DNA from: Marchantia polymorpha subsp. ruderalis
Lineage: Eukaryota > Streptophyta > Marchantiopsida > Marchantiales > Marchantiaceae
Length of the DNA stretch: 64,000 bases
Direction: 5' to 3'
NCBI GenBank assembly: GCA_037833965.1
Contig: AP031354.1
Location: 2,582,001-2,646,000 of the forward strand
Shown: positions 4,631 to 54,625 of the stretch, one piece after another
How positions within the stretch are numbered: position 1 is the first letter of the stretch
Layout of the letters: each line of letters starts with the position of its first letter
The notes under the pieces: generated by a model
What the model was told of the DNA's origin: nothing
The model's database searches: none
The model's input: the letters and a program-made list of their open reading frames with translations, nothing else
Made by a program: the position numbers and the translations under genes

Positions 4631-4930
4631 CTGATACGGTTCGGAAGGAAGAGACGCAGCAGCTGGAGGCGTAGGGCGGTGAGGGGGAGATTACTCAATC
4701 ACAGCACATCGCCTCAGATAAAGTCGTCAGCTATACATCCGGCGAAGAGAGAAGAAGCTGGCCCCTCCGACCGATCTGATCTTTCGATTGATCGACTGAA
4801 GAAAGAGCTTCGCATCGCAGGAAGCAATTGCCTCTCGCATTGGACTCTTCTTTTGAGACATAGATAGTGGGTGGAAAAAGGGTAGCAGCAGTGAGTTTCA
4901 GCGCAGATAGACCTGGATTGACTGCTTTGG

Positions 4931-5217: not shown

Positions 5218-5509
5218 AAGCGGACAGTGGCGGATCGAAGCCTGAGTAGTCGATTTCCAGCATCGACTGCTTCGAGAAGGCGTGAAATTGGAAAAGCTAG
5301 TGGAGGATAACAGTGACGCTGTGTCCAAATTGAAGACGAAAATTCTACTGGGCCGTTTTACAGATTTTGTGAAGGATCTCGATTCTTTGTTCCCAAGAGC
5401 TTTTAGGTCTGATACCCGAAGTTCAGTACGTGAAAATGGATGGAGCAGTTATCCTTCTGCTTGGAGGCAAGTATGGGCCGGGAGATAGGAGGATAGAAGC
5501 GGGGAAGTT

Positions 5510-7000: not shown

Positions 7001-7179
7001 TGTAATAACCCACTAAAGGCTAAAACTGCAATATAGTGGTAGAAAGGTCGAACCCACAGGGACAGAGGAACACACAGGGTACAAAGTGTCACGTTTAATA
7101 GACTATTTAAGGCGACTGTCACTCCCAGAAATACTGCAAGTGTCCACTCGGAGCGCACTCAGAGGTCGCACAGTGCAGC

Positions 7180-7214
<35 letters not shown>

Positions 7215-7939
7215 GAAACTACAGAAACACAACCCAGAGATCTGTTAGGACCTCTACTCAAGATTTCAGGGGGGAAAAGTCTCTCGCGAGCACACTCAGC
7301 GAAGCTGCGGGCAGTGGCTTCCAACTCCGGCTTTTACAACACTTCCACTAGCTTGCTGCTAGTGTAGGAAACCCGGTTTGGACTGCCTACTTCGGATCGA
7401 AGTCACTCCTACGCGGTGAACAACACTCTCAACTCACAAAACGCGCAGAGAACACAGGTCCGCACTGAAGGACTCACTACGAAACATTCCAGTAACACAA
7501 CAACAGTCTATTGAAGAGTTTGAATTCTCAGGCACTTGTCATTCCCAGAAATACTACATGGGTTACCCTCAAGGCACCTGCTGCAGCGTAACCTGAATTT
7601 ACAACCAAGGCTTACACGAAGTAGCAAAACTTCACTTTGGCATTCAGGGGAAAAATCCCAAATGAGTACAATCAGGAACAGACACTCGAAGGTGTAGGGG
7701 CGAAACTATTCAAGTATCTAACTAGTCACTGGCTCTAAGCATCGGCAATCACCCGCAGGTGTAGATCCGAACTACTCAAGTCTCTAACCAATGTGCTAGC
7801 TCTGAACATTCGGCCGAAGGCTTTCAGCTACAAAATGCGGAACGCTAAGTTGTAACTCCTCATGCGTGGTGACAGAACTCAAGGACACAAACACGCAGAG
7901 GAAATGAATTCCTGATCTGCACTTCTGAGTTTGGGAAAG
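7001..7939 (-). repeat. Partial family-A LTR (R-U5 end), LTR0
   Basis: Begins with TGTAATAACCC, the reverse complement of the LTR 3' end, and matches the R-U5 part of the other LTRs, including a roughly 30-bp AC run at 7183-7212. It stops at GGGAAAG where the next LTR starts. The simplest reading is an older reverse LTR cut by insertion of element R at GAAAG (7935-7939), with the rest of it beyond the window. The left flank CCTCT (6996-7000) would be its target-site copy. A partial LTR duplication by recombination is the alternative. Confidence 0.75.
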
Positions 7940-8899
7940 TGTAATAACCCACTAAAGGCTAAAACTGCAATATAGTGGTAGAAAGGTCGAACCCACAGGG
8001 ACAGAGGAACACACAGGGTACAAAGTGTCACGTTTTAACAGACTATTGAGGAGTTTGAATTCTCAGGCGACTGTCACTCCCAGAAATACTGCAAGTGTCC
8101 ACTCGGAGCGCACTCGGAGGTCGCACAGTGCAGCGTAACACACACACACACACACCTGAAACTACAGAAACACAACCCAGAGATCCGTTAGGACCTCTAC
8201 TCAAGATTTCAGGGGGGAAGTCTCTCGCGAGCACACTCGGCAAAGCTGCGGGCAGTGACTTCCAACTCCGGCTTTTACAACACTTCCACTAGCTTGCTGC
8301 TAGTGTAGGAAACCCGGTTTGGACTGCCTACTTCGGATCGAAGTCACTCAGACGCGGTGAACAACACTATCAACTCACAAAACGCGCAGAGAACACAGGT
8401 CCGCACTGAAGGACTCACTGAGAAACATTCCAGTAACACAACAACAGTCTATTGAAGAGTTTGAATTCTCAGGCACTTGTCATTCCCAGAAATACTACAG
8501 GGGTTACCCTCAAGGCACCTGCTGCAGCGTAACCTGAATTTACAACCAAGGTTTACACGAAGTAGTAAAACTTCACTTTGGCATTCAGGGGAAAAATCCC
8601 AAGGAGTACAATCAGAAAGAAACACTCGAAGGTGTAGGGGCGAAACTGTTCAAGTATCTAACTAGTCACTGGCTCTAAGCATCGGCAGTCACCCGCAGGT
8701 GCAAATCCGAACTACTCAAGTCTCTAACCAATGTACTAGCTCTGAACATTCGGCCGAAGGCCTTCAGCTACAAAATGCGGAACGCTAAGTTGTAACTCCT
8801 CGTGCGTGGTGACAGAACTCAAGGACACAAACACGCAAAGGAAATGGGTTCCTGATCTGCACTTCTGATGGGAAAGAACCCCAGGCAAAACGCCTGGAA

Positions 8900-8909
8900 C
8901 TATTTTATA
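8900..8909 (-). promoter_or_regulatory. LTR TATA box
   Basis: TATAAAATAG on the minus strand, 37 bp after the stop codon of the LTR ORF. It is followed by the CCAGGC-GTTTT-GCCTGG hairpin seen in the other copies. It marks the U3/R boundary region. Confidence 0.75.
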
Positions 8910-8945
8910 CCTTCAAAGTCCTACCTAACACTACACTGCACTACG

Positions 8946-11900
8946 CTACACGCCTGCACGGAACCACGCTACACTACACTCCGCGGAACCTGTACTACGT
9001 CTCCTGCGCGGCCGACTGCCGCGCACTAACTCCCTACCCTGCCAATCTTCCGCTCGACTGCGCAGTCCCAAACGCTGCAACGCCGCGGTCACCTCCACTT
9101 CGAGGGCGGACATGGTATCCTGTGCCTTCGACAGAAAGGCATCGAGCTTCTTTGCTACCTTCCGCCGACTCCTACTGTCGCCTGACAATAACCCGGCTGC
9201 GCGCAATTCAAACTCACGCAGTGTGAGTTTCTCCTGCGCCTTCACTTCCCAGTGGGCGTAGCCCTTGAGACAGTGGGCGACACGCCTCACCGTCTCCACC
9301 TTCGTGCGATCCGCCTCCTTCCTGCGATCCTCTTCAATTATCACTAATTGCGATTCGGCTTCAGCACGTTGCGTTCTCAATTCGCCACACTCTGACTGTA
9401 ACCTGCGGATTAACTCTTCATCCGCCTGCCGTGCGAGCTGACATTGTTCCAACAACCGCGTCTGTCGCACGAGCTCCTCTGACAAAATCCGATTCTGGGC
9501 CTGCTCAGAAATGAGTGCTTCCTTGACCTTCACCTGCTCCTTGGTGAGCTCGTCCAGTTTCTCATTCTTCATCTTCTCGGAGTGCTTGTAGAATTTCTGA
9601 TTAAGCTTGTACTGACCCCACAAGCACGCATGCTTCTCCTTCAATTCCTTCAACTCCTGGTCCACTCTAGCTAATAGCTTGCTGGTGTGGACTTTAGTGC
9701 GAGTCCGCCTGCGCACTAACTCGATGTAAGATCCCGGCTGGAATGGGTCGGCGTATTTATCGACCTTGCGATCCAAGTACCGCAGCAACGGAATCACTTG
9801 CTCAGAGAGCGCCGCCGCCGGCGCTCCAACAATTTCCTCCTCCTCCTCCTCGGTGTCTTCTGCTCCTGACATTTCTTCCGTGGAGCCTCCGTCGTCATCA
9901 TCCGAGTGGAGAATTTCAGTCGCCATTGATTGCGTCGGCGACTGCCCCGAGTGGGGCTGCACGTCATCGACGTGTGCTGCCTGCGAAGGCACGGCTGCAG
10001 CCTCGCTGCTCGTCGCCAAAATGTCTAAGGCGGAAGGCGAATGTACCTGTGCGGCATCCCCGTCGCTCGCTTGTTGATTGTCTACCGCATCCTCTCTGCC
10101 GCCGTCGTCCGCCTCCGAAGGCGATCGAGCGGAGGGTGACTGCGCGGGGTTTGATTGCGCATCGCGCGTCGAGATTTCATCCCGCGGACAGTCACTCCGC
10201 TCCTCCGTCTGTTGCTGCTCCCTTGATCGGTCCGTGGGGGCTGTGCCCGGCCCGTGCGTAGGCGCATTTGCCGGCGCCTTGTCCGCCGCAGGCGTAGCGC
10301 CGCGGACATCTATCGCCGAAGGCGACATGGCCGGGGGCCGCACGCCCGATGTTCCTTGGCCTATAGGCCCTACCGCCGAAGGCGCATCTATCGGCGGACT
10401 TCCCGCCGATGGTGCGGCCTCCGCACGCTCTCTGCTCGTATCTCCTCGGCTCGAAGGCCCTGGCGCCGAAGGCGCAAATTGCGGCGCGTGGTGCGCCGGA
10501 GGGTCTGGCGCCGAGAGCCGGTGTCTCGTAGGCGGTTCTTCCGCCGGCTCCTTCCCCTTCCTACGTTGGAACGGGGGTGATTCTTGCCTGTGCACAGGCG
10601 GCACGTGTGGAGGCGTCCTGTGCACAGGCGACCTGTGCACAGGCGAGCGCCTGTGCACAGGCGGACTGCTTCTTCCCACACGTAAGCGTAGATCCACGTC
10701 CACTTGTGTTCGCCGGTCCGCGGAGGCTCGTCCGTCCGCGGAGGCTCGTCTGTGCGCAAACGGAACATCTCTCCGCATCGCACGTGGTAACTCCGGAGGC
10801 CCTTGGCCCGTAGGCGGCCTTTCTCCCGTCGAGGTTGCAGCGTGGCCCGTTGCTCCTGCGGTCGTCCGCGCTTCCTCCTGCCTCTCTGGCGACGCACTTC
10901 CTATCTCCGTCGCAATTGTCGCCGTGTCCGCACTGTCGGCTGGTAACACCAGTCTGCGTGCCTTCTGCTTCGGCCGGCTGTATGGCTCGCACAGCGGCCG
11001 CGGTCGAATGGGAGCAGAGGGTTCTTGATGCTGCTCCTCTTCAGACTCTTCCCTCCATCGCCGCTTCCGCGGCACTCGTGCTGCAGGAGTGTGTCTCCCT
11101 TCGTCCCTCCGTCTTGATGGGGTAGAAGTTGGTGACTCCTCTGCATCAGTGTCGACCTCGTTCTCCCGCACATACTTCCCGGGATGGTCGATGGACAATG
11201 GCGGAAAATGTTCAAGCTCCGCCGCTGTCAAACAATTCCGCTGTCGATAAAAATTGATGAGGAAAGGAGAAAGATGGTTTAGAGTTCCCCCCTTCTCCTC
11301 AAACGCGTGCTGTCGCATCACCCTGTGCAGGATGCTCGCCCAGTGAATTGGAGTTCCCTCGATGACGCACTCCACAAAAGAGACCTGCCACAATGTGATG
11401 TAGCAGGCGCGGTGCGGCTGCAGTAATTGCATCAGCGCCGCGGACAAAGTCCGGCGAAATCGATCCTTGTAATCACGGGTCCTGTACCCATTCTTGGTAG
11501 ACCTCCCGGTCTTGAACAGCTCCACAAATTGCGCCTCTTCTTGCTTGGTCACCTTGATGCTCTCACTGTCGAAAAGGAGATGCCCTGGCATGCCAGCACA
11601 TCTTCCCAACGCCTGCGCCCAATCTTGGACTGTCCACCGGTCAACATGCGGACGCAATCCGCGCGAGGGTGGTCCCTGTGGCTCTAGCCACTCGCGCACC
11701 ATATTCGCACAGATGTAATTCCATCCCCATAGCAAGAAATCGAGCTTTCTTGCTATTAAGCGCTCCTCAAAAGCGCGCAGCCCGTTCTGCGGTAGGCGAA
11801 GTGGCACCATCCGCAATCTGCTCGGTCTCGTCATTGCGTTCCTGGGGTTCGCTCGCCCGCTCATTCTACTTCCGCACCGCCCGGGTTTCTTTCTCTCTCG

Positions 11901-12086
11901 GCAAACTCTAATCGCCCTCAATTCCAAATCACGCGCACTCACTTCTCCCTCAATCAACAAGAAATCTCCTGTGCGACGACGTCGAGAATGTTCCGCAGCC
12001 AGCAGATGGATGCGCGCAGCGCGCACAAGAGATTGGAATCGCAAATTCAAGAATGGGACGTTCTCCGCCGCCCGGTCGAAGGTCAT
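8946..12086 (-). CDS. LTR-encoded protein, family A, intact (1,046 aa)
   Basis: Function unknown; I recognise no domain family. Residues 1-84 may be untranslated, because homology with the family-B protein starts at Met85 (codon at 11,834), inside a conserved AACGCAATG context. Residues about 90-330 form a helical, Trp-rich domain with FLLWGWN, YRTRDYKDR, GGTLNHLSPFLI and FYRQRN. Residues about 340-760 are low complexity, rich in R, P, S and A, with SPVHR repeats encoded by short palindromes and ending in an acidic EDTEEEEEE patch. Residues about 790-940 are a long charged coiled coil. A basic tail RPRRRRSTGS could be a nuclear signal. There is no signal peptide or membrane segment, so it is not an envelope. 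The gene is in U3 on the same strand as gag-pol, so genomic RNA would carry it at the 3' end. Confidence 0.8.
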   Translation of the reverse strand: MTFDRAAENVPFLNLRFQSLVRAARIHLLAAEHSRRRRTGDFLLIEGEVSARDLELRAIRVCRERKKPGRCGSRMSGRANPRNAMTRPSRLRMVPLRLPQNGLRAFEERLIARKLDFLLWGWNYICANMVREWLEPQGPPSRGLRPHVDRWTVQDWAQALGRCAGMPGHLLFDSESIKVTKQEEAQFVELFKTGRSTKNGYRTRDYKDRFRRTLSAALMQLLQPHRACYITLWQVSFVECVIEGTPIHWASILHRVMRQHAFEEKGGTLNHLSPFLINFYRQRNCLTAAELEHFPPLSIDHPGKYVRENEVDTDAEESPTSTPSRRRDEGRHTPAARVPRKRRWREESEEEQHQEPSAPIRPRPLCEPYSRPKQKARRLVLPADSADTATIATEIGSASPERQEEARTTAGATGHAATSTGERPPTGQGPPELPRAMRRDVPFAHRRASADGRASADRRTQVDVDLRLRVGRSSPPVHRRSPVHRSPVHRTPPHVPPVHRQESPPFQRRKGKEPAEEPPTRHRLSAPDPPAHHAPQFAPSAPGPSSRGDTSRERAEAAPSAGSPPIDAPSAVGPIGQGTSGVRPPAMSPSAIDVRGATPAADKAPANAPTHGPGTAPTDRSREQQQTEERSDCPRDEISTRDAQSNPAQSPSARSPSEADDGGREDAVDNQQASDGDAAQVHSPSALDILATSSEAAAVPSQAAHVDDVQPHSGQSPTQSMATEILHSDDDDGGSTEEMSGAEDTEEEEEEIVGAPAAALSEQVIPLLRYLDRKVDKYADPFQPGSYIELVRRRTRTKVHTSKLLARVDQELKELKEKHACLWGQYKLNQKFYKHSEKMKNEKLDELTKEQVKVKEALISEQAQNRILSEELVRQTRLLEQCQLARQADEELIRRLQSECGELRTQRAEAESQLVIIEEDRRKEADRTKVETVRRVAHCLKGYAHWEVKAQEKLTLREFELRAAGLLSGDSRSRRKVAKKLDAFLSKAQDTMSALEVEVTAALQRLGLRSRAEDWQGRELVRGSRPRRRRSTGSAECSVAWFRAGV

Positions 12087-13330
12087 GGTCGGCTCTTGCT
12101 CGTGAAGAACGTCTCACTTGATGGCCGCGCCGGCTGTACGCTGGAACGGTCTTCGCTCTCACGCGCGGCTTCACGCTCCGCCGTCGTCGATTAAACTCTC
12201 ACGCTCGAATTGGCGGATTTGAACTCCGCGAGCGTATTACCCTGCGGACATGGGGACGTAGCGCCGAAGGCGAGTTTTCCGCCTTGCGCGGTACACTTGT
12301 TCGTACCGCCCCTCGGCCAATCCCCCTCTGCCTTGACGCGTGTGTCCGCATGTCGGACAAAAATTCAACTCCTGCCTGTGCGCAGGCAGGAGCCTCGGCG
12401 GATTCTCCGCCGGCACGGAGCTTCATCCTCCTGTGCACAGGCGTTCGCCTGTGCGCAGGCGAATTCCGTGCGCTACGTCGCGCTGGCGCGGAAGGCGTTG
12501 ACCGTAGTCAGCCGTCTCCGTCCAGTCTGTCCGTTCCTTGTCTCTTCGTCGGCGCTTCCGCCGCCGCAACTCCGTCCGTCCAAGAGCGCATCCACCCTTC
12601 CCGTCCGCATGGTCCGTACCGATTTGATTACTCTGGCGGCTCTTCCGACGTACGCGGCGCCGCGCTGGCGCGGAAGGCGCCGTACACTTTCTACCTCACA
12701 AGGCGCATTTCTAGGGCCCAAGGCGGATTTTCCGCCGACGCCGAAGCGCCTGTGCACAGGCGAGCGCCTCTGCGTAGGCGGACTTCGCGCCTCCCCTAAC
12801 CCTACTTCGCCTGTGCACAGGCGAACGCCTTCGTCCGCGCATAGGACAAAACTTGATTCCCCCTTCCGCGTAGGCGGAATTCGCGCCGGTGGCGAACTCT
12901 TTCCGCCGTAGGCGACCGCCTCCGTTTCTTCCAATAGCGATAACTCCCTAAGTCCTCATCCGTTCCAAGCGTTCTTGGGCTCGTTGGAATCAGTGCGTCG
13001 AGCTCTTTCCAACGGAATCCTAACTTGGTCAAGGCGCCCGAGGGTTGACCTAATTATGGAGGGTTTCCCTACAGCCGCGGACGCAACCTCCGAAGGCGGG
13101 TTTTGCGCCTTGCGCCGTAGAGATCCTAACTGCAGAGCTCGCAGGGAGGGTGGTGCCTGTCCTTACTGCTGCACCCCAAATCCCAGATTCTACAAGATCC
13201 CTCGAGAATCCCCGCGATCTTCCGGATTCACTCTGTTTTGATGTACCGAAGGCTATTTATAACGCTGCCAGGGTACAGTTTTTCAAAAATGTTTTAATTT
13301 TCTCAAAATTGCCAAAAGTGGGGTACCACA
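12087..13330 (-). other. U3 upstream of the LTR ORF, palindrome-rich
   Basis: No gene. This GC-rich stretch is filled with short self-complementary units such as CGCCTGTGCACAGGCG, CCGCCTACGCGG-like and CGCCTTCGGCG motifs. The outermost 250 bp next to the LTR edge is AT-richer and lacks them. The same units recur in the low-complexity middle of the ORF. Confidence 0.7.
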
Positions 13331-13343
13331 TGCCCCCCTCCTC
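13331..13343 (-). other. Polypurine tract of element R
   Basis: Reads GAGGAGGGGGGCA on the minus strand and abuts the LTR at TGTGG. This primes plus-strand synthesis and fixes the LTR edge. Confidence 0.9.
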
Positions 13344-15453: not shown

Positions 15454-15879
15454 TGTGGTACCCCACTTTTGGCAATTTTGAGTAAATTGAAACATTTTTG
15501 GAAAACTGTACCCTGGTAGCATTGTAAATAGCCTTCGGTACATCAAAACAGAGTGAATCCGGAAGATCGCGGGGATTCTCGAGGGATCTTGTAGAATCTG
15601 GGATTTGGGGTGCCACAGTAAGGACAGGCACCACCCTCCCTGCGAGCTCTGCAGTTAGGATCTCTACGGCGCAAGGCGCAAAACCTGCCTTCGGAGGTTG
15701 CGTCCGCGGCTGTAGGGAAACCCTCCATAATTAGGTCAACCCTCGGGCGCCTTGACCAAGTTAGGATTCCGTTGGAAAGAGCTCAACGCACTGATTCCAA
15801 CGAGCCCAAGAACGCTTGGAACGGATGAGGACTTAGGGAGTTATCGCTATTGGAAGAAACGGAGGCGGTCGCCTACGGC

Positions 15880-16470
15880 GGAAGGAGTTCGCCGCCGGCG
15901 CGAATTCCGCCTACGCGGAAGGGGGAATCAAGTTTTGTCCTATGCGCGGACGAAGGCGTTCGCCTGTGCACAGGCAAAGTAGGGTTAGGGAAGGCGCGAA
16001 GTCCGCCTACGCACAGGCGTTCGCCTGTGCACAGGCACTTCGGCATCGGCGGGAAATCCGCCTTGGGCCCTAGAAATGCGCCTTGTGAGGTAGAAGGTGT
16101 ACGGCGCCTTCCGCGCCAGCGCGGCGCCGCGTACGTCGGAAGAGCCGCCAGAGTAATCAAATCGGTACGGACCGTGCGGACGGGAAGGGTGGATGCGCTC
16201 TTGGACGGACGGAGTTGCGGCGGCGGAAGCGCCGACGGAGAGACAAGGAACGGACAGACTGGACGGAGACGGCTGACCACGGTCAACGCCTTCCGCGCCA
16301 GCGCAGCTCCGCGGACGGAATTCGCCTGCGCACAGGCGAACGCCTGTGCACAGGAGGATGTTCAAGTTCCGCGCCGGCGGAGAATCCGCCGAGGCTCCTG
16401 CCTGCGCACAGGCAGGAGTTGAACTTTTGTCCGACATGCGGACACACGCGTCAAGGCCGAGGGGGGATTG
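15880..16470 (+). repeat. Palindromic mini-repeat field in U3
   Basis: Representative copy of the dispersed GC-rich palindromes: GCCTGTGCACAGGC at several places (for example 15,961-15,974 and 16,021-16,040), GCCTGCGCACAGGC near 16,324, and CCGCC-GGCGG pairs. Units are separated by irregular spacers, so this is not a tandem satellite and not a CRISPR array. Confidence 0.75.
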
Positions 16471-16701
16471 GCCGAGGGGCGGTACGAACAAGTGTACCGC
16501 GCAAGGCGGAAAACTCGCCTTCGGCGCTACGTCCCAATGTCCGCAGGGTGACACGCTCGCGGAGTTCAAATCCGCCAATTCGAGCGTGAGAGTTTAATCG
16601 ACGACGGCGGAGCGTGAAGCCGCGCGTGAGAGCGAAGACCGTTCCAGCGTACAGCCGGCGCGGCCATCAAGTGAGACGTTCTTCACGACCAAGAGCCGAC
16701 C

Positions 16702-19700
16702 ATGACCTTCGACCGGGCGGCGGAGAACGTCCCATTCTTGAATTCGCGATTCCAATCTCTTGTGCGCGCTGCGCGCATCCATCTGCTGGCTGCGGAACAT
16801 TCTCGACGTCGTCGCACAGGAGATTTCTTGTTGATTGAGGGAGAAGTGAGTGCGCGTGATTTGGAATTGAGAGCGATTAGAGTTTGCCGAGAGAGAAAGA
16901 AACGCGGGCAGTGCGGAAGTAGAATGAGCGGGCGAGCGAACCCCAGGAACGCAATGACGAGACCGAGCAGATTGCGGATGGTGCCACTTCGCCTACCGCA
17001 GAACGGGCTACGCGCTTTTGAGGAGCGCTTAATAGCAAGAAAGCTCGATTTCTTGCTATGGGGATGGAATTACATCTGTGCGAATATGGTGCGCGAGTGG
17101 CTAGAGCCACAGGGACCACCCTCGCGCGGATTGCGTCCGCATGTTGATCGATGGACAGTCCAAGATTGGGCGCAGGCGTTGGGAAGATGTGCTGGCATGC
17201 CAGGGCATCTCCTTTTCGACAGCGAGAGCATCAAGGTGACCAAGCAAGAAGAGGCGCAATTTGTGGAGCTGTTCAAGACCGGGAGGTCAACCAAGAATGG
17301 GTACAGGACCCGTGATTACAAGGATCGATTTCGCCGGACTTTGTCCGCGGCGCTGATGCAATTACTACAGCCGCACCGCGCCTGCTACATCACATTGTGG
17401 CAAGTCTCTTTTGTGGAGTGCGTCATCGAGGGAACTCCAATTCACTGGGCGAGCATCCTGCACAGGGTGATGCGACAGCACGCGTTTGAGGAGAAGGGGG
17501 GAACTCTAAACCATCTTTCTCCTTTCCTCATCAATTTTTATCGACAGCGGAATTGTTTGACAGCGGCGGAGCTTGAACATTTTCCGCCATTGTCCATCGA
17601 CCATCCCGGGAAGTATGTGCGGGAGAACGAGGTCGACACGGATGCAGAGGAGTCACCGACTTCTACCCCATCAAGAAGGAGGGACGAAGGGAGACACACC
17701 CCTGCAGCGCGAGTGCCGCGGAAGCGGCGATGGAGGGAAGAGTCTGAAGAGGAGCAGCATCAAGAACCCTCTGCTCCCATTCGACCGCGGCCGCTGTGCG
17801 AGCCATACAGCCGGCCGAAGCAGAAGGCACGAAGACAGGTGTTGCCAGCTGACAGTGCAGACACGGCGACAATTGCGACGGAGATAGGAAGTGCGTCGCC
17901 AGAGAGGCGAGAGGAAGCGCGGACGACCGCAGGAGCAACAGGCCACGCTGCAACCTCGTCGGGAGAGAGGCCGCCTACGGGCCAAGGGCCTCCGGAGTTA
18001 CCACGTGCGATGCGGACAGATGTTCCGTTTGCGCACAGGCGAACCTCCGCGGACGGACGAGCCTCCGCGGACCGGCGAACACAAGTGGACGTGGATCTAC
18101 GCTTACGCGTGGGAAGGAGCAGTCCGCCTGTGCACAGGCGCTCACCTGTGCACAGGTCGCCTGTGCACAGGACACCTCCACACGTGCCGCCTGTGCACGG
18201 GCAAGAATCACCCCCGTTCCAACGTAGGAAGGGGAAGGAGCCGGCGGAAGAACCGCCTACGAGACACCGGCCCTCGGGGCCAGACCCTCCGGCGCACCAC
18301 GCGCCGCAATTTGCGCCTTCGGCGCCAGGGCCTTCGAGCCGAGGAGATACGAGCAGAGAGCGTGCGGAGGCCGCACCATCGGCGGGAAGTCCGCCGATAG
18401 ATGCGCCTTCGGCGGTAGGGCCAATAGGCCAAGGAACATCGGGTGTGCGGCCCCCGGCCATGTCGCCTTCGGCGATAGATGTCCGCGGCGCTACGCCTGC
18501 GGCGGACAAGGCGCCGGCAAATGCGCCTGCGCACGGGCCGGGCACAGCCCCCACGGACCGATCAAGGGAGCAGCAGACGGAGGAGCGGAGTGACTGTCCG
18601 CGGGATGAAATCTCGATGCGCGATGCGCAATCCAACCCCGCGCAGCCACCCTCCGCTCAATCGCCTTCGGCGGCGGACGACGGCGACAGAGAACGCGGTA
18701 GGCAATCAACAAGCGAGCGACGGGGATGCCGCTCGGGTACATTCGCCTTCCGCCTTAGACATTTTGGCGACGAGCAGCGAGGCTGCAGCCGTGCCTTCGC
18801 AGGCAGCCCACGTCGAGAACGTGCAGCCCCACTCGGGGCAGTCGCCGACGCAATCAATGGCGACTGAAATTCTCCACTCGGATGATGACGACGGAGGCTC
18901 CACGGAAGAAATGTCAGGAGCAGAAGACACCGAGGAGGAGGAGGAGGAAATTGTTGGAGCGCCGGCGGCGGCGCTCTCTGAGCAGGTGATTCCGTTGCTG
19001 CGGTACTTGGATCGCAAGGTCGATAAATACGCCGACCCACTCCAGCCGGGATCTTACATCGAATTAGTGCGCAGGCGGACTCGCACTAAAGTCCACACCA
19101 GCAAGCTATTAGCTAGAGTGGACCAGGAGTTGAGGGACTTGAAGGAGAAGCATGCGTGCTTGTGGGGTCAGTACAAGCTTAATCAGAAATTCTACAAGCA
19201 CTCCGAGAAGATGAAGGATGAGAAACTGGGCGAGCTCACCAAGGAGCAGGTGAAGGTTAAGGAAGCACTCAACTCTGAGCAGGCCCAGAATCGGATTTTG
19301 TCAGAGGAACTCGTGCGACAGACGCGGTTGTTGGAACAATGTCAGCTCGCACGGCAGGCGGATGAAGAGTTAATCCGCAGGTTACAGTCAGAGTGTGGCG
19401 AATTGAGAGCGCAACGTGCTGAAGCCGAATCGCAATTAGTGATAATTGAAGAGGATCGCAGGAAGGAGGCGGATCGCACGAAGGTGGAGACGGCGAGGCG
19501 AGTCGCCCACTGTCTCAAGGGCTACGCCCACTTGGAAGTGAAGGCGCAGGAGAAACTCACACTGCGTGAGTTTGAATTGCGCGCAGCCGGGTTGTTGTCA
19601 GGCGACAGTAGGAGTCGGCGGAAGGTAGCAAAGAAGCTCGAAGCCTTTCTGTCGAAGGCACAGGATACCATGTCCGCCCTCGAAGGGGAGGTGTCCGCGG

Positions 19701-19837
19701 CGTTGCAGAGGTTGGGACTGCGCAGTCGAGCGGAAGATTGGCAGGGTAGGGAGTTAGTGCGCGGCAGTCGGCCGCGCAGGAGACGTAGTACAGGTTCCGC
19801 GGAGTGTAGTGTAGCGTGGTTCCGTGCAGGCGTGTAG
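16702..19837 (+). pseudogene. LTR-encoded protein, family A, frameshifted copy
   Basis: Full-length homologue of the 1,046-aa protein. The frame is open from 16,702 to about 18,690, where two bases are missing in the acidic DRENAVGNQ-like segment. The rest, including the coiled coil and basic tail, continues in another frame to 19,837. The conserved start candidate Met85 is at 16,954. One simple indel is the only lesion I see. Confidence 0.85.
18121..18203 (+). repeat. Palindrome cluster coding for SPVHR repeats
   Basis: Four copies of CCTGTGCACAGG-type palindrome in about 80 bp, in frame with the LTR ORF and read as repeated Ser-Pro-Val-His-Arg. Copy number differs between LTRs (an extra unit in the copies at 34,500, 45,495 and 56,300), so the array expands or contracts by units that keep the frame. 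Confidence 0.8.
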
Positions 19838-19873
19838 CGTAGTGCAGTGTAGTGCTAGGTAGGACTTAGAAGG

Positions 19874-19902
19874 TATAAAATAGTTCCAGGCGTTTTGCCT
19901 GG
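19874..19902 (+). promoter_or_regulatory. LTR promoter: TATA box plus hairpin
   Basis: TATAAAATAG at 19,874-19,883, then CCAGGC-GTTTT-GCCTGG (stem 6 bp) at 19,886-19,902. Transcription expected about 30 bp after the TATA would start at or just after the hairpin. This defines U3 as about 4.4 kb and R-U5 as about 0.95 kb. Confidence 0.75.
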
Positions 19903-20054
19903 GGTTCTTTCCCATCAGAAGTGCAGATCAGGAACCCATTTCCTTTGCGTGTTTGTGTCTTTGAGTTCTGTCACCACGCACGAGGAGTTACAACTTAGCG
20001 TTCCGCATTTTGTAGCTGAAGGCCTACGGCCGAATGTTCAGAGCTAGTACATTG

Positions 20055-20755
20055 GTTAGAGACTTGAGTAGTTCGGATCTGCACCTGCGGGTGACTGCCG
20101 ATGCTTAGAGCCAGTGACTAGTTAGATACTTGAACAGTTTCGCCCCTACACCTTCGAGTGTTTCTTTCTGATTGTACTCCTTGGGATTTTTCCCCTGAAT
20201 GCCAAAGTGAAGTTTTGCTACTTCGTGTAAGCCTTGGTTGTAAATTCAGGTTACGCTGCAGCAGGTGCCTTGAGGGTAACCCCTGTAGTATTTCTGGGAA
20301 TGACAAGGGCCTGAGAATTCAAACTCTTCAATAGACTGTTGTTGTGTTACTGGAATGTTTCACAGTGAGTCCTTCAGTGCGGACCTGTGTTCTCTGCGCG
20401 TTTTGTGAGTTGAGAGTGTTGTTCACCGCGTATGAGTGACTTCGATCCGAAGTAGGTAGTCCAAACCGGGTTTCCTACACTAGCAGCAAGCTAGTGAAAG
20501 CGTTGTAAAAGCAGGAGTTGGAAGTCACTGCCCGCAGCTTTGCCGAGTGTACTCTTGAGAGACTTTCCCCCTGAAATCTTGAAGTAGAGGTCCTAACGGA
20601 TCTCTGGGTTGTGTTTCTGTAGTTTCAGGTGTGTGTGTGTGTGTGTGTTACGCTGCACTGTGCGACCTCCGAGTGCGCTCCGAGTGGACACTTGCAGTAT
20701 TTCTGGGAGTGACAGTTGCCTGAGAATTCAAACTCCTCAATAGTGTGTTAAAACG
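20055..20755 (+). repeat. Imperfect internal duplications in the R-U5 leader
   Basis: Two kinds of repeat. GTTAGAGACTTGAGTAGT (20,056 on) recurs diverged near 20,121. A longer block ending in GTAGTATTTCTGGGAATGAC and CCTGAGAATTCAAACTCTTC (about 20,193-20,341) recurs near 20,571-20,755 with an added TG run. The block is present in every family-A LTR and partly in family B, so the duplication predates the split. Confidence 0.75.
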
Positions 20756-20851
20756 TGACACTTTGTACCCTGTGTGTTCCTCTGTCCCTGTGGGTTCGAC
20801 CTTTCTACCACTATATTGCAGTTTTAGCCTTTAATGGGTTATTACAGGTGT

Positions 20852-26141: not shown

Positions 26142-27107
26142 TGTAATAACCCACTAAAGGCTAAAACTGCAATATAGTGGTAGAAAGGTCGAACCCACAG
26201 GGACAGAGGAACACACAGGGTACAAAGTGTCACGTTTTAACAGACTATTGAGGAGTTTGAATTCTCAGGCAACTGTCACTCCCAGAAATACTGCAAGTGT
26301 CCACTCGGAGCGCACTCGGAGGTCGCAAAGTGCAGCGTAACACACACACACACACACACACACCTGAAACTACAGAACACAACCCAGAGATCCGTTAGGA
26401 CCTCTACTTCAGGATTTCAGGGGGAAAGTCTCTCGCGAGCACACTCGGCAAAGCTGCGGGCAGTGACTTCCAACTCCGGCTTTTACAACACTTCCACTAG
26501 CTTGCTGCTAGTGTAGGAAACCCGGTTTGGACTACCTACTTCGGATCGAAGTCACTCATACGCGGTGAACAACACTCTCAACTCACAAAACGCGCAGAGA
26601 ACACAGGTCCGCACTGAAGGACTCACTGTGAAACATTCCAGTAACACAACAACAGTCTATTGAAGAGTTTGAATTCTCAGGCACTTGTCATTCCCAGAAA
26701 TACTACAGGGGTTACCCTCAAGGCACCTGCTGCAGCGTAATCTGAATTTACAACCAAGGCTTACACGAAGTAGCAAAACTTCACTTTGGCATTCAGGGGA
26801 AAAATCCCAAAGGAGTACAATCAGGAACAGACACTCGAAGGTGTAGGGGCGAACTGTTCAAGTATCTAACTAGTCACTGGCTCTGAGCATCGGCAGTCAC
26901 CCGCAGGTGCAGTTCCGAACTACTCAAGTCTCTAACCAATGGACTAGCTCTGAACATTCGGCCGAAGGCCTTCAGCTACAAAATGCGGAACGCTAAGTTG
27001 TAACTCCTCGTGCGTGGTGACAGAACTCAAGGACACAAACACGCAAAGGAAATGGGTTCCTGATCTGCACTTCTGATGGGAAAGAACCCCAGGCAAAACG
27101 CCTGGAA

Positions 27108-27117
27108 CTATTTTATA
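27108..27117 (-). promoter_or_regulatory. LTR TATA box
   Basis: TATAAAATAG on the minus strand of the solo LTR, with the adjacent GCCTGG hairpin intact. Confidence 0.7.
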
Positions 27118-27153
27118 CCTTCTAAGTCCTACCTAACACTACACTGCACTACG

Positions 27154-30028
27154 CTACACGCCTGCACGGAACCACGCTACACTACACTCCGCGGAACCTG
27201 TACTACGTCTCCTGCGCGGCCGACTGCCGCGCACTAACTCTCTACCCTGCCACTCTTCCGCTCGACTGCGCAGTCCCAACCTCTGCAACGCCGCGGACAC
27301 CTCCCCCTCGAGGGCGGACATGGTATCCTGTGCCTTCGACAGAAAGGCTTCGAGCTTCTTTGCTACCTTCCGCCGACTCCTACTGTCGCCTGACAACAAC
27401 CCGGCTGCGCGCAATTCAAACTCACGCAGTGTGAGTTTCTCCTGCGCCTTCACTTCCCAGTGGGCGTAGCCCTTGAGGCAGTGGGCGACTCGCCTCGCCG
27501 TCTCCACCTTCGTGCGATCCGCCTCCTTCCTGCGATCCTCTTCAATTGTCACTAATTGCGATTCGGCTTCAGCACGTTGCGCTCTCAATTCGCCACACTC
27601 TGACTGTAACCTGCGGATTAACTCTTCATCCGCCTGCCGTGCGAGCTGACATTGTTCCAACAACCGCGTCTGTCGCACGAGCTCCTCTGACAAAATCCGA
27701 TTCTGGGCCTGCTCAGAATCGAGTGCTTCCTTGACCTTCACCTGCTCCTTGGTGAGCTCGCCCAGTTTCTCATCCTTCATCTTCTCGGTGTGCTTGTAGA
27801 ACTTCTGATTAAGCTTGTACTGACCCCACAAGCACGCATGCTTCTCCTTCAAGTCCCTCAACTCCTGGTCCACTCTAGCTAATAGCTTGCTGGTGTGGAC
27901 TTTAGTGCGAGTCCGCCTGCGCACTAACTCGATGTAAGATCCCGGCTGGAGTGGGTCGGCGTATTTATCGACCTTGCGATCCAAGTACCGCAGCAACGGA
28001 ATCACCTGCTCAGAGAGCGCCGCCGCCGGCGCTCCAACAATTTCCTCCTCCTCCTCCTCGGTGTCTTCTGCTCCTGACATTTCTTCCGTGGAGCCTCCGT
28101 CGTCATCATCCGAGTGGAGAATTTCAGTCGCCATTGATTGCGTCGGCGACTGCCCCGAGTGGGGCTGCACGTCGTCGACGTGTGCTGCCTACGAAGGCAC
28201 GGCCGCAGCCTCGCTGCTCGTCGCCAAAATGTCTAAGGCGGAAGGCGAATGTACCCGTGCGGCATCCCCGTTTCTCGCTTGTTGATGGTCTACCGCATCC
28301 TCTCTGTCGCCGTCGTCCGTCGCCGAAGGCGATCGAGCGGAGGGTGGCTGCGCGGGGTTGGATTGCGCATCGCGCATCGAGATTTCATCCCGCGGACAGT
28401 CACTCCGCTCCATCGTCTGCTGCTCCCTTGATTGGTCCGTGGGGGCTGTGCCCGGCCCGTGCGCAGGCGCATTTGCCGGCGCCTTGTCCGCCGCAGGCGT
28501 AGCGCCGCGGACATCTATCGCCGAAGGCGACATGGCCGGGGGCCGCACGCCCGATGTTCCTTGGCCTATAGGCCCTACCGCCGAAGGCGCATCTATCGGC
28601 GGACTTCCCGCCGATGGTGCGGCCTCCGCACGCTCTCTGCTCGTATCTCCTCGGCTCGAAGGCCCTGGCGCCGAAGGCGCGAATTGCGGCGCGTGGTGCG
28701 CCGGAGGGTCTGGCCCCGAGGGCCGGTGTCTCGTAGGCGGTTCTTCCGCCGGCTCCTTCCCCTTCCTACGTTGGAACGGGGGTGATTCTTGCCTGTGCAC
28801 AGGCGGCACGTGTGGAGGTGTCCTGTGCACAGGCGACCTGTGCACAGGTGAGCGCCTGTGCACAGGCGGACTGCTCCTTCCCACGCGTAAGCGTAGATCC
28901 ACGTCCACTTGTGTTCGCCGGTCCGCGGAGGCTCGTCCGTCCGCGGAGGTTCGCCTGTGCGCAAACGGAACATCTGTCCGCATCGCACGTGGTAACTCCG
29001 GAGGCCCTTGGCCCGTAGGCGGCCTCTCTCCCGACGAGGTTGCAGCGTGGCCCGTTGCTCCTGCGGTCGTCCGCGCTTCCTCTCGCCTCTCTGGCGACGC
29101 ACTTCCTATCTCCGTCGCAATCGTCGCCGTGTCTGCACTGTCAGCTGGCAACACCAGTCTGCGTGCCTTCTGCTTCGGCCGGCTGTATGGCTCGCACAGC
29201 GGCCGCGGTCGAATGGGAGCAGAGGGTTCTTGATGCTGCTCCTCTTCAGACTCTTCCCTCCATCGCCGCTTCCGCGGCACTTGCGCTGCAGGGGTGTGTC
29301 TCCCTTCGTCCCTCCGTCTTGATGGGGTAGAAGTCGGTGACTCCTCTGCATCAGTATCGACCTCGTTCTCCCGCACATACTTCCCGGGATGGTCGATGGA
29401 CAATGGCGGAAAATGTTCAAGCTCCGCCGCTGTCAAAGAATTCCGCTGTCGATAAAAATTGATGAGGAAAGGAGAAAGATGGTTTAGAGTTCACCTTGAT
29501 GCTCTCGCTGTCGAAAAGGAGATGCCCTGGCATGCCAGCACATCTTCCCAACGCCTGCGCCCAATCTTGGACTGTCCACCGATCAACATGCGGACGCAAT
29601 CCGCGCGAGGGTGGTCCCTGTGGCTCTAGCCACTCGCGCACCATATTCGCACAGATGTAATTCCATCCCCATAGCAAGAAATCGAGCTTTCTTGCTATTA
29701 AGCGCTCCTCGAAAGCGCGCAGCCCGTTCTGCGGCAGGCGAAGTGGCACCATCCGCAATCTGCTCGGTCTCGTCATTGCGTTCCTGGGGTTCGCTCGCCC
29801 GCTCATTCTACTTCCGCACTGCCCGCGTTGCTTTCTCTCTCGGCAAACTCTAATCGCCCTCAATTCCAAATCACGCGCACTCACTTCTCCCTCAATCAAC
29901 AAGAATTCTCCTGTGCGACGACGTCGAGAATGTTCCGCAGCCAGCAGATGGATGCGCGCAGCGCGCACAAGAGATTGGAATCGCGAATTCAAGAATGGGA
30001 CGCTCTCCGCCGCCCGGTCGAAGGTCAT
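27154..30028 (-). pseudogene. LTR-encoded protein, family A, stop and deletion
   Basis: Three blocks of the protein are visible: 30,028-29,417, 29,436-28,189 and 28,170-27,154. A deletion near 29,490 removes about 85 codons of the conserved domain (from after SESIKV to before LNHLSPF) and shifts the frame. A CAG to TAG change near 28,189 ends the second block at AAAVPS. The deletion ends share only a base or two, which suggests end joining. Confidence 0.85.
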
Positions 30029-31274
30029 GGTCGGCTCTTGGTCGTGAAGAACGTCTCACTTGATGGCCGCGCCGGCTGTACGCTGGAACGGTCTTCGCTC
30101 TCACGCGCGGCTTCACGCTCTGCCGTCGTCGATTAAACTCTCACGCTCGAATTGGCGGATTTGAACTCCGCGAGCGTGTCACCCTGCGGACATGGGGGCG
30201 TAGCGCCGAAGGCGAGTTTTCCGCCTTGCGCGGTACACTTGTTCGTACCGCCCCTCGGCCAATCCCCCTCTGCCTTGACGCGTGTGTCCTCATGTCGGAC
30301 AAAAGTTCAACTCCTGCCTGTGCGCAGGCAGGAGCCTCGGCGGATTCTCCGCCGGCGCGGAACTTGAACATCCTCCTGTGCACAGGCGTTCGCCTGTGCG
30401 CAGGCGAATTCCTTCCGCGGCGCTGCGCTGGTGCGGAAGGCGTTGACCGTGGTCAGCCGTCTCCGTCCAGTCTGTCCGTTCCTTGTCTCTCCGTCGGCGC
30501 TTCCGCCGCCGCAACTCCGTCCGTCCAAGAGCGCATCCACCCGTGCCGTCCGCATGGTCCGTACCGATTGGATTACTCTGACGGCTCTTCCGACGTACGC
30601 GGCGCTGCGCTGGCGCGGAAGGCGCCGTACACTTTCTACCTCACAAGGCGCAATTCTAGGGCCCAAGGCGGATTTCCCGCCGACGCCGAAGCGCCTGTGC
30701 ACAGGCGTTCGCCTGTGCGTAGGCGGACTTCGCGCCTTCCCTAACCCTACTTCGCCTGTGCACAGGCGAAGGCCTTCGTCCGCGCATAGGACAAAACTTG
30801 ATTCCCCCTTCCGCGTAGGCGGAATTCGCGCCGGTGGCGAACTCCTTCCGCCGTAGGCGACCGCCTCCGTTTCTTCCAGTAGCGATAATTCCCTAAGTCC
30901 TCATCCGTTCCAAGCGTTCTTGGGCTCGTTAGAATCAGCGCGTCGAGCTCTTTCCAACGGGACCCTAACTTGGTCAAGGCGCCCGAGGGTTGACCTAATT
31001 ACGGGGGTTTCCCTACAGCCGCGGACGCAACCTCCGAAGGCGGGTTTTGCGCCTTGCGCCGTAGAGATCCTAACTGCAGAGCTCGCAAGGAGGGTGGTGC
31101 CTGTCCTTACTGCGGCACCCCAAATCCCAGATTCTACAAGATCCCTCGAGAATCCCCGCGATCTTCCGGATTCACTCTGTTTTGATGTACCGAAGGCTAT
31201 TTACAATGCTGCCAGGGTACAGTTTTCCAAAAATGTTTTAATTTCCTCAAAATTGCCAAAAGTGGGGTACCACA

Positions 31275-31832: not shown

Positions 31833-33078
31833 TGTGGTACCCCACTTTTGGCAATTTTGAGGAAATTAAAACATTTTTGGAAAACTGTACCCTGGCAGCA
31901 TTGTAAATAGCCTTCGGTACGTCAAAACAGAGTGAATCCGGAAGATCGCGGGGATTCTCGAGGGATCTTGTAGAATCTGGGATTTGGGGTGCCGCAGTAA
32001 GGACAGGCACCATCCTCCCTGCGAGCTCTGCAGTTAGGATCTCTACGGCGCAAGGCGCAAAACCCGCCTTCGGAGGTTGCGTCCGCGGCTGTAGGGAAAC
32101 CCCCGTAATTAGGTAAACCCTCGGGCGCCTTGACCAAGTTAGGGGCACGTTGGAAAGAGCTCGACGCGCTGATTCTAACGAGCCCAAGAACGCTTGGAAC
32201 GGATGAGGACTTAGGGAGTTATCGCTACTGGAAGAAACGGAGGCGGTCGCCTACGGCGGAAGGAGTTCGCCACCGGCGCGAATTCCGCCTACGCGGAAGG
32301 GGGATTCAAGTTTTGTCCTATGCGCGGACGAAGACGTTCGCCTGTGCACAGGCGAAGTAGGGTTAGGGAAGGCGCGAAGTCCGCCTACGCACAGGCGTTC
32401 GCCTGTGCACAGGCACTTCGGCGTCGGCGGAAAATCCGCCTTGGGCCCTAGAAATGCGCCTTGTGAGGTAGAAAGTGTACGGCGCCTTCCGCGCCAGAGC
32501 AGCGCCGCGTACGTCGGTAGAGCCGCCAGAGTAATCCGATCGGTACGGACCGTGCGGACGGCACGGGTGGATGCGCTCTTGGACGGACGGAGTTGCGGCG
32601 GTGGAAGCGCCGACGGAGAGACAAGGAACGGACAGACTGGACGGAGACGGCTGACCACGGTCAACGCCTTCCGCGCCAGCGCAGCGCCGCGGACGGAATT
32701 CGCCTGCGCACAGGCGAACGCCTGTGCACAGGAGGATGTTCAAGTTCCGCGCCGGCGGAGAATCCGCCGAGACTCCTGCCTGCGCACAGGCAGGAGTTGA
32801 ATTTTTGTCCGACATGCGGACACACGCGTCAAGGCAGAGAGAGATTGGCCGAGGGACGGTACGAACAAGTGTACCGCGCAAGGCGAAAAACTCGCCTTCG
32901 GCGCTACGCCCTAATGTCCGCAGGGTGACACGCTCACGGAGTTCAAATCCGCCAATTCGAGCGTGAGAGTTTAATCGACGACGGCGGAGCGTGAAGCCGC
33001 GCGTGAGAGCGAAGACCGTTGCAGCGTACAGCCGGCGCGGCCATCAAGTGAGACGTTCTTCACGACCAAGAGCCGACC

Positions 33079-36025: not shown

Positions 36026-36061
36026 CGTAGTGCAGTGTAGTGTTAGGTAGGACTTAGAAGG

Positions 36062-36071
36062 TATAAAATAG
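36062..36071 (+). promoter_or_regulatory. LTR1 TATA box
   Basis: TATAAAATAG followed by the CCAGGC hairpin. This is the likely promoter for internal1. Confidence 0.75.
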
Positions 36072-37056
36072 TTCCAGGCGTTTTGCCTGGGGTTCTTTCC
36101 CATCAGAAGTGCAGATCAGGAACCCATTTCCTTTGCGTGTTTGTGTCCTTGAGTTCTGTCACCACGCACGAGGAGTTACAACTTAGCGTTCCGCATTTTG
36201 TAGCTGAAGGCCTTCGGCCGAATGTTCAGAGCTAGTCCATTGGTTAGAGACTTGAGTAGTTTGGATCTGCACCTGCGGGTGACTGCCGATGCTCAGAGCC
36301 AGTGACTAGTTAGATACTTGAACAGTTTCGCCCCTACACCTTCGAGTGTTTCTTTCTGATTGTACTCCTTGGGATTTTTCCCCTGAATGCCAAAGTGAAG
36401 TTTTGCTACTTCGTGTAAGCCTTGGTTGTAAATTCAGGTTACGCTGCAGCAGGTACCTTGAGGGTAACCCCTGTAGTATTTCTGGGAATGACAAGTGCTT
36501 GAGAATTCAAACTCTTCAATAGACTGTTGTTGTGTTACTGGAATGTTTCACAGTGAGTCCTTCAGTGCGGACCTGTGTTCTCTGCGCGTTTTGTGAGTTG
36601 AGAGTGTTGTTCACCGCGTCTGAGTGACTTCGATCCGAAGTAGGTAGTCCAAACCGGGTTTCCTACACTAGCAGCAAGCTAGTGGAAGCGTTGTAAAAGC
36701 CGGAGTTGGAAGTCACTGCCCGCAGCTTTGCCGAGTGTGCTCGTGAGAGACTTTCCCCCTGAAATCTTGAAGTAGAGGTCCTAACGGATCTCTGGGTTGT
36801 GTTTCTGTAGTTTCAGGTGTGTGTGTGTGTGTGTGTTACGCTGCACTGTGCGACCTCCGAGTGCGCTCCGAGTGGACACTTGCAGTATTTCTGGGAGTGA
36901 CAGTTGCCTGAGAATTCAAACTCCTCAATAGTCTGTTAAAACGTGACACTTTGTACCCTGTGTGTTCCTCTGTCCCTGTGGGTTCGACCTTTCTACCACT
37001 ATATTGCAGTTTTAGCCTTTAGTGGGTTATTACATAAGAAGCCGACAACTTCTTTT

Positions 37057-37074
37057 TGGCGCCGCTGCCGGGGA
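37057..37074 (+). other. Primer binding site of internal1, tRNA-Asp type
   Basis: TGGCGCCGCTGCCGGGGA, 22 bases after the LTR edge. The gap contains a small AAGAAG/CTTCTT stem. Confidence 0.87.
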
Positions 37075-37120
37075 CAGTTGCGTCAACACCAGGGTTTTTA
37101 CGAGCAGCCATGCTCGGTGA

Positions 37121-39952: not shown

Positions 39953-39958
39953 CAATTA
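39950..39958 (+). promoter_or_regulatory. Leaky stop TAG CAA TTA
   Basis: The gag-protease stop and the next two codons. Pol is open from here in the same frame without an early ATG. The context equals the CARYYA readthrough signal of tobamoviruses and of the soybean SIRE1 env-like ORF type. Confidence 0.82.
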
Positions 39959-42793: not shown

Positions 42794-42817
42794 GTGTTCG
42801 CGTGGGCGCTCACAATT

Positions 42818-42830
42818 GAGGAGGGGGGCA
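42818..42830 (+). other. Polypurine tract of internal1
   Basis: GAGGAGGGGGGCA directly before TGTGG of LTR2. Confidence 0.9.
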
Positions 42831-45800: not shown

Positions 45801-45954
45801 TGCAGTATTTCTGGGAGTGACAGTTGCCTGAGAATTCAAACTCCTCAATAGTCTGTTAAAACGTGACACTTTGTACCCTGTGTGTTCCTCTGTCCCTGTG
45901 GGTTCGACCTTTCTACCACTATATTGCAGTTTTAGCCTTTAGTGGGTTATTACA
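42831..45954 (+). repeat. LTR2, shared and internally deleted (3,124 bp)
   Basis: Both ends are normal. A deletion of about 2.1 kb joins the LTR ORF at about 45,751 to U5, next to a duplicated GTGCGACCTCCGA unit. It removes the coiled-coil coding part, the TATA box, R and part of U5, so internal2 has no LTR promoter of its own. Confidence 0.92.
44074..45751 (+). pseudogene. LTR-encoded protein in LTR2, C-terminally truncated
   Basis: The conserved N-terminal domain and most of the SPVHR region are open and nearly identical to LTR1. The frame runs into U5 sequence after the deletion and stops at 45,831 with foreign residues. No coiled coil is left. Confidence 0.88.
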
Positions 45955-51248: not shown

Positions 51249-51281
51249 GATAGCGTAGTGCTAGTTAGGATCTTTTGAGAG

Positions 51282-51291
51282 TATAAAGTAG
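51282..51291 (+). promoter_or_regulatory. Family-B LTR TATA box
   Basis: TATAAAGTAG followed by GAGGC-GTTTT-GCCTTG, a weaker version of the family-A hairpin at the same place. Confidence 0.7.
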
Positions 51292-54579: not shown

Positions 54580-54589
54580 CTATTTTATA
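54580..54589 (-). promoter_or_regulatory. LTR TATA box
   Basis: TATAAAATAG on the minus strand; the neighbouring hairpin has one mismatch in this copy. Confidence 0.7.
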
Positions 54590-54625
54590 CCTTCTAAGTC
54601 CTAACTAGCACTACACTGCACTACG

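Follow-up and report, generated by a model that had tools for sequence, protein, structure and literature searches.

Can a plant retrotransposon carry a working gene inside its own long terminal repeat (LTR)? The question is raised by a stretch of 64,000 nucleotides from Marchantia polymorpha subsp. ruderalis (AP031354.1, 2,582,001-2,646,000; hereafter the window), which belongs to an assembly of 241 Mb in nine contigs. The window is a nest of one Ty3-type LTR retrotransposon family, here called family A, and its minus-strand element terminates in an LTR that holds a long open reading frame (ORF). We found that more than half of this LTR is a gene under strong selection, and that in the LTRs of three Ty3-type families of Marchantia that have diverged from one another (A, D and X3) a long gene lies within the stretch from the LTR start to a conserved TATA box. 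We infer that the gene is expressed and serves replication, and give a probability of about 0.72 to the reading that it is a replication gene of the element, located in the U3 region of the LTR, passed to both LTRs by copying and retained in solo LTRs.

A long gene between the LTR start and the TATA box

The initial annotation described a 5.4-kb LTR whose edges were set by a polypurine tract, a primer binding site and four target-site duplications (TSDs), and all of these features were found. Family A LTRs start with TGTGG and end with TTACA, and perfect 5-bp duplications (GGTGT, GGCGA, CTAGC and GCTCG) flank the four solo LTRs of the window. The features needed here, in window coordinates and with their basis in parentheses, are as follows.

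7,940-13,330, minus strand: family A LTR of 5,391 bp, the 3' LTR of the minus-strand element, starting at 13,330 and ending at 7,940 (repeat boundaries, TGTGG and TTACA ends, adjoining polypurine tract)
13,331-13,343, minus strand: polypurine tract GAGGAGGGGGGCA, directly followed by TGTGG of the LTR start (sequence inspection)
8,946-11,834, minus strand: LTR-resident gene, from the ATG at 11,834 to the TAG at 8,946, 962 amino acids (frame, start and stop; selection; conserved start region)
11,835-12,113, minus strand: upstream extension of the frame, open but apparently non-coding, which includes the ATG at 12,086 (ratio of nonsynonymous to synonymous changes per site, pN/pS, 0.72-0.74, P 0.2)
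8,900-8,909, minus strand: TATA box TATAAAATAG, at LTR offset 4,422 (block conserved in families A, D and X3)
54,626-57,526, minus strand: second intact gene copy, in a solo LTR, 966 amino acids from the corresponding ATG (frame)
48,693-51,248, plus strand: LTR gene of family D, 851 amino acids, 42% identical to the family A protein (frame, protein comparison)

Read from stop to stop, the two intact minus-strand frames span 8,946-12,113 (1,055 amino acids) and 54,626-57,805 (1,059 amino acids). The ORF stop lies at LTR offset 4,385 and the TATA box 37 bp behind it; the ORF is therefore located between the LTR start and the TATA box, that is, in U3, and on the gag-pol strand, exactly as first claimed. 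The frames originally proposed (8,946-12,086 and 54,626-57,778, about 1,050 codons) both exist as open frames, but translation probably starts at the ATG at 11,834, 84 codons inside the first ATG at 12,086, which would give the protein of 962 amino acids. We prefer this start because codons 1-93 evolve without constraint (18.3 synonymous versus 40.7 nonsynonymous distinct variants, ratio 0.74, P 0.2), because they have no counterpart in the second family (D), and because the methionine at 11,834 does have counterparts, recurring ahead of LR..PL[RL] in family D copies and in locus L043.

A CAG, a candidate splice acceptor, stands ahead of the ATG in copies of families A and D. Elsewhere in U3, a non-coding block at LTR offset ~318-391 (window ~12,940-13,013) is 71-76% conserved in families A, D, X3 and X4 and might serve the LTR gene as promoter or enhancer. 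Behind the TATA box, a motif of 60-70 bp occurs twice, at LTR offsets ~4,832-4,888 and 5,237-5,307 (window ~8,443-8,499 and 8,024-8,094); it cross-matches families X3, X4 and D at 82-89% and may be an RNA signal.

The ORF is part of the LTR and not a nested insertion, because the diverged families D and X3 hold the gene at the same place, with the LTR ends and their own 5-bp duplications outside it. The family D LTR was located by position, independently of the ORF, and family X3 is represented by a solo LTR of 5,299 bp elsewhere in the genome (TSD AGAGG). The layout common to A, D and X3 runs from the LTR start through 1.4-1.8 kb, the ORF, the TATA box and ~1 kb to the LTR end, and the TATA block behind the ORF is conserved across all three. 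In a further family, X4, the LTR start and homology to the ORF are recognisable; no LTR end was found within the stretch examined. The claim that the ORF lies inside the LTR rather than in an adjoining insertion thus withstood the check for a nested element, since D and X3 contradict nesting.

Within family A, we took 19 loci from 40 places listed for a bait made of the last 555 bp of the ORF, which cannot reveal an ORF-less LTR. LTR sequence aligns to the reference at these 19 loci, some with deletions or inserts, and the frame is whole in 15 of them (1,044-1,061 codons, stop to stop) and broken in four (L026, L032, L033 and L035). No internal stop was present in 36 of the best 44 protein matches, a list that favours good copies. 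Independently of the ORF, we matched LTR-start motifs to LTR-end motifs listed on contig C1 and part of C2 (82 and 100, respectively); an end was listed within 30 kb for 56 starts and none for 26. Among the 37 pairs closer than 8 kb, 24 measured 5.0-5.7 kb, 11 were shorter and 2 longer, and an ORF-sized LTR is therefore the usual form. Two lengths recur among the shorter pairs, 2,574 bp and 4,868 bp, each found three times and apparently through segmental copies on C1; 2,574 bp is near the length expected without the ORF.

Selection on the gene and on gag-pol

The initial annotation had proposed the ratio of nonsynonymous to synonymous change as a check on the gene, with values near 1 counting against it. 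Counted by the Nei-Gojobori method with our own script, pooled pN/pS over the whole frame was 0.32 among 17 intact family A ORFs. When each of the 19 loci, broken ones included, was compared with the window copy, pN/pS was 0.030 in an N-terminal domain (N-domain, codons 94-330), 0.48 in codons 331-760 and 0.22 in codons 761-870; these pairwise counts are non-independent, in that changes on the branch leading to the window copy are counted repeatedly. For 12 gag-pol fragments, counted in the same way, pN/pS was 0.235 for gag and protease (gag-PR) and 0.088 for reverse transcriptase, RNase H and integrase (RT-RNaseH-INT). Synonymous divergence was 0.050-0.055 in gag-PR, in RT-INT and in the first two parts of the ORF, and 0.071 in the third. 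The gene is under purifying selection in the replicating lineage, as gag-pol is, and about as strictly as the replication enzymes.

Counts of distinct variants across 17 ORFs gave 43 synonymous and 13 nonsynonymous in the N-domain (ratio 0.09, P 6.6e-17), 88 and 113 in the middle region (0.45, P 3.7e-8) and 17 and 15 in codons 761-870 (P 0.0002), with P values that assume a neutral ratio of 1 and not the empirical baseline. That baseline, taken from arbitrary frames of non-coding LTR, was 0.42-0.88; the neutral value being below 1, the middle region is hardly below neutral. The two other sense frames of the N-domain gave 3.9 and 2.0, and a constraint so specific to one frame argues for more than a chance open frame.

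Between families, dN/dS of the N-domain was mostly 0.09-0.28, with synonymous sites near saturation and no value for pairs with infinite dS. Exceptions came from two sets: pairs involving L027, in which homology of the open frame starts only at codon 292 (0.31-0.58), and the closely related L003, L004 and L005 among themselves (0.28-0.40). Values within family D were 0.02-0.09. The check therefore came out on the side of a gene, within the family and between families alike. Between the two LTRs of a single element (31,833-45,954, treated as one element because its LTRs are 99.6% identical over 1,708 bp of the ORF), there are 2 synonymous and 5 nonsynonymous changes; on these seven changes only, constraint looks relaxed after insertion.

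The protein, its proposed role and the place of the gene

The predicted protein begins with the N-domain of ~240 amino acids, hydrophobic and aromatic, and continues with a middle of ~400 amino acids that is rich in Pro, Ser, Thr, Ala, Gln and Gly, nearly without aromatics, and closes with an acidic run. Its C-terminal part has a conserved block around LLRYLDRK, a long heptad-like stretch and an Arg-rich tail. From these features, the product most likely is a factor that serves its own element, forms oligomers and binds nucleic acid or particles.

The window protein matched no Pfam family at its cut-off. When 27 relatives were scanned at E up to 10, 17 families were matched, each in one or two members and most of them as a chance match of a single member; the N-domain alone had no match, and the plant accessory families PF03078, PF04195, PF10536 and PF20167 were not among the 17. 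Matches such as Extensin_1 (best E 0.0002) and CENP-K (0.002), each in one or two of the 27 members, look like low complexity or coiled coil, and a likeness to Transposase_32 was absent from the Pfam matches of these members. The PDB held no related sequence at E up to 1. A duplication of gag as the source of the N-domain was rejected on a profile comparison with the element's own gag (probability 0.3%). Named relatives are all hypothetical proteins of M. polymorpha (the best 120 of 123 in one of the lists), and no homologue outside Marchantia appeared among the named proteins listed; in viral contigs, none of 13 pattern matches was confirmed. The earlier remark that no plant protein of this type is described holds for Pfam and the PDB, but NCBI has many M. 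polymorpha hypothetical proteins of the family. One candidate for a domesticated host copy, the annotated Mp_8g15400 (P0053), is 96% identical to the C-terminal 499 amino acids of the family D ORF and proved to be a truncated family D ORF. A more distant relative, P0031 (484 amino acids), has the N-domain and an LLxYLDRK block, is 42% identical to family D over 208 columns and may come from another liverwort.

Accessory genes in LTR retrotransposons are a known kind; the place is new for plants, and the protein is new, occurring in none of the families tested. The initial annotation named sag of mouse mammary tumour virus as the known precedent, which stands as regards a sense gene residing in U3, but sag is not the sole precedent, as nef and foamy-virus bet also extend into U3. 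Sag is a type II membrane protein of ~320 amino acids. Among the Pfam matches of the window protein and the 27 members, there was no sequence relation to Sag. Like sag, whose LTR-encoded protein is described in the accessible part of its source (PMC11998498), the Marchantia gene is a sense accessory gene in U3, present in both LTRs; unlike sag, it encodes 962 amino acids, lies wholly inside the LTR, belongs to a plant Ty3 element and has a soluble-looking product.

Plant reviews and surveys, in their accessible text, place extra ORFs in the internal region (PMC7264820, PMC6317226, PMC11963269, PMC3485330), and what follows is limited to the same text. Some plant elements have sense extra ORFs (env-like aORFs) of unknown function between pol and the 3' LTR (PMC7264820). 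The gene described here is likewise sense and downstream of pol on the genomic RNA, but whereas aORFs lie in the internal region, upstream of the polypurine tract, it lies downstream of the tract, inside the LTR (A, D and X3). Rice Retrosat2, a Ty3 element whose LTRs exceed 3 kb, likewise has an extra ORF, ORF0, but this one is described as upstream of gag-pol and not in the LTR (PMC3485330). Retand elements carry antisense TRP28 ORFs, for which DNA binding has been proposed (PMC11963269); these share with our gene the status of a conserved extra protein of a plant Ty3 element, but are antisense, internal and of PF04195, which is not among the matches of the 27 members. No plant LTR-resident gene was found in the literature accessible to us, Repbase and most subscription journals lying outside that scope.

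If the gene serves replication from within U3, the genomic RNA would have the order R-U5-gag-pol-U3(gene)-R, given the TATA box behind the ORF, and the gene would take the place of the sense ORF between pol and the 3' LTR of other plant elements. Plus-strand priming would occur upstream of the gene and not downstream, so that every round of reverse transcription would put the gene in both LTRs and produce a giant LTR. Solo LTRs would keep the gene because it lies in U3. Translation would proceed from a spliced or short mRNA ending at the common LTR terminator, or from an own promoter near the U3 start, and the protein may act in particle assembly, nuclear entry or integration, which would fit the constraint on the N-domain.

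Several points weigh against this reading. The middle region is under only weak constraint (0.45-0.48, where non-coding LTR gives 0.42-0.88), and family D has not kept the TATA-like motif near LTR offset 70 that is the candidate own promoter. The predicted biochemical role is drawn from sequence composition only. The ORF of the X3 copy is broken, the 19 family A copies were drawn with the ORF-3'-end bait, and the 11 shorter pairs of the 37 are known by length alone.

In a bolder form, which we hold to be possible but doubtful, the LTR would be a self-contained cassette in which an essential gene has a promoter of its own and a shared terminator, solo loci would act as helpers, priming would have shifted to a site upstream of a gene in the env position, and the protein would possibly be as indispensable as reverse transcriptase.

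The main rival, which we consider unlikely, is that the U3 gene acts on the host, for instance against silencing, and not in replication, as U3 proteins of animal retroviruses do. Nef and bet act on the host, and the fast middle region would suit such a protein; sag acts on the host as well, according to the accessible part of its source (PMC11998498). The N-domain, however, is tighter than RT-INT (0.03 versus 0.088), unlike an arms-race protein.

Quite improbable, in our view, is a genomic RNA that starts near the LTR start and so carries the gene in a very long 5' leader ahead of gag. ORF0 of Retrosat2 would be its precedent, as described in the accessible text (PMC3485330); the first 100 bp of the LTR are conserved, and a TATA-like stretch stands at offset ~70, reading TATAAATAG in the window copy and TGTAAATAG in other copies. 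Yet family D does not conserve that stretch, and a good TATA box stands directly behind the ORF, in a strongly conserved block, in three families.

We give very little credence to a passenger origin of the ORF block, by which a separate element or a captured gene of the host entered the LTR once and has travelled with it since, a reading that the selection data already contradict. The gene occupies the same place in three diverged families under selection equal to that on gag-pol, and no host parent gene is among the protein matches listed, the annotated exception being the truncated family D ORF; these points outweigh the lack of any Pfam or PDB relative pointing to a retroviral origin and one C1 locus, in three copies, whose LTR of 2,574 bp is near ORF-less length and known by length alone. 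That GC-rich composition left the frame open by chance, its conservation reflecting DNA or RNA signals, might be suggested by the long antisense open frames (316 and 320 codons) that overlap it, but is refuted by the frame-specific constraint (0.03 versus 3.9 and 2.0) and by protein similarity between families at near-saturated synonymous sites.

Plant LTRs are usually taken as regulatory DNA, and surveys, in their accessible parts, look for extra genes between the LTRs; if the arrangement is general, a class of LTR-resident genes escapes annotation. The family is large and recently active-looking, in a model plant, and both the expression of the gene and the function of its protein are directly testable in Marchantia. 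It offers a natural test of how a retroelement places a gene to be duplicated in every copy and to outlast in solo LTRs, together with a new protein family, in which the N-domain is held as tightly as the polymerase of the element. If the cassette reading were true, LTR-LTR recombination would make helper loci and not dead ends, and the thousands of LTR ends without an internal region would include many loci still making a protein needed by full elements.

Surrounding elements, stop codon and copy number

Besides the minus-strand element, the window contains a plus-strand element that begins at 31,833 and continues in tandem (LTR-internal-LTR-internal-LTR) up to the window end, and solo LTRs sit within both. 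The remaining features are these.

31,833-37,034, plus strand: internally shortened 5' LTR of the plus-strand element (repeat boundaries)
37,057-37,074, plus strand: primer binding site TGGCGCCGCTGCCGGGGA, starting 22 nt past the LTR end at 37,034 (sequence inspection)
37,121-42,793, plus strand: gag-PR and RT-RNaseH-INT, one frame interrupted by a single in-frame TAG (ORF and Pfam)
39,950-39,952, plus strand: this TAG, in the context TAG CAA TTA, between PR and RT (sequence inspection)
42,831-45,954, plus strand: internally deleted 3' LTR of the plus-strand element, with a further internal region behind it (repeat boundaries)
15,454-20,846, plus strand: solo family A LTR within pol, TSD GGTGT, ORF broken into two overlapping frames (boundaries and TSD)
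26,142-31,274, minus strand: solo family A LTR with an internal deletion, TSD GCTCG, ORF broken (boundaries and TSD)
53,619-59,015, minus strand: solo family A LTR, TSD GGCGA (boundaries and TSD)
47,337-52,204, plus strand: solo LTR of the diverged family D within gag, TSD CTAGC (boundaries and TSD)

The domains follow the Ty3/gypsy order of gag, CCHC, PR, RT, RNaseH and INT (Pfam; pieces 37,121-39,949 and 39,953-42,790), and the further hallmarks of TG...CA LTRs, primer binding site, polypurine tract and 5-bp TSDs are present. In the one copy scanned, no Pfam match to a chromodomain, the mark of chromoviruses, was found at the INT end up to E 1. The primer binding site resembles what we take to be the tRNA-Asp type, one base off, a trait presumably associated with the Ogre/Tat/Athila (OTA) branch. 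The gap between the LTR end and the primer binding site (37,035-37,056) is unusually long at 22 nt. A truncated LTR end (7,001-7,939, 93% identical) adjoins the LTR end at 7,940 in tandem.

The sequence TAG CAA TTA was present in 5/5 copies covering the site, one of them only 84% identical. Genome-wide, GAYGARTAGCARYTAAC occurred 753 times (control 1) and the same pattern with any codon replacing TAG 775 times (control 28); TAG is therefore kept in at least 97% of the sites that match the flank. This context, the leaky stop of the tobacco mosaic virus type (UAG CAR YYA), suggests programmed readthrough between protease and reverse transcriptase.

With one mismatch allowed, the genome contains 6,033 LTR ends (by a pattern that also fits D and X3, and pooling 3' LTRs, solo LTRs and fragments), 3,348 family A LTR starts, 854 LTR-leader junctions and 1,181 junctions of polypurine tract and LTR; reversed-pattern controls gave 0. 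Given 6,033 ends and 854 LTR-leader junctions, most LTR ends have no leader behind them, and from this excess and the tandem arrays we infer that LTR-LTR recombination is frequent. Tandem LTR-internal-LTR-internal-LTR arrays occur in the window (31,833-64,000) and on contig C2 (G000 C2:31351113-31384688), where four LTR-leader junctions follow one another at exactly 11,184 bp, a period close to the summed length of an LTR and an internal region. On contig C1 (5.6 Mb), the places of LTR-leader junctions between ~2.33 and 3.28 Mb repeat at shifts of ~406,369 bp and then ~353,182 bp, and a segment of ~0.35-0.4 Mb seems to be present three times on this contig.

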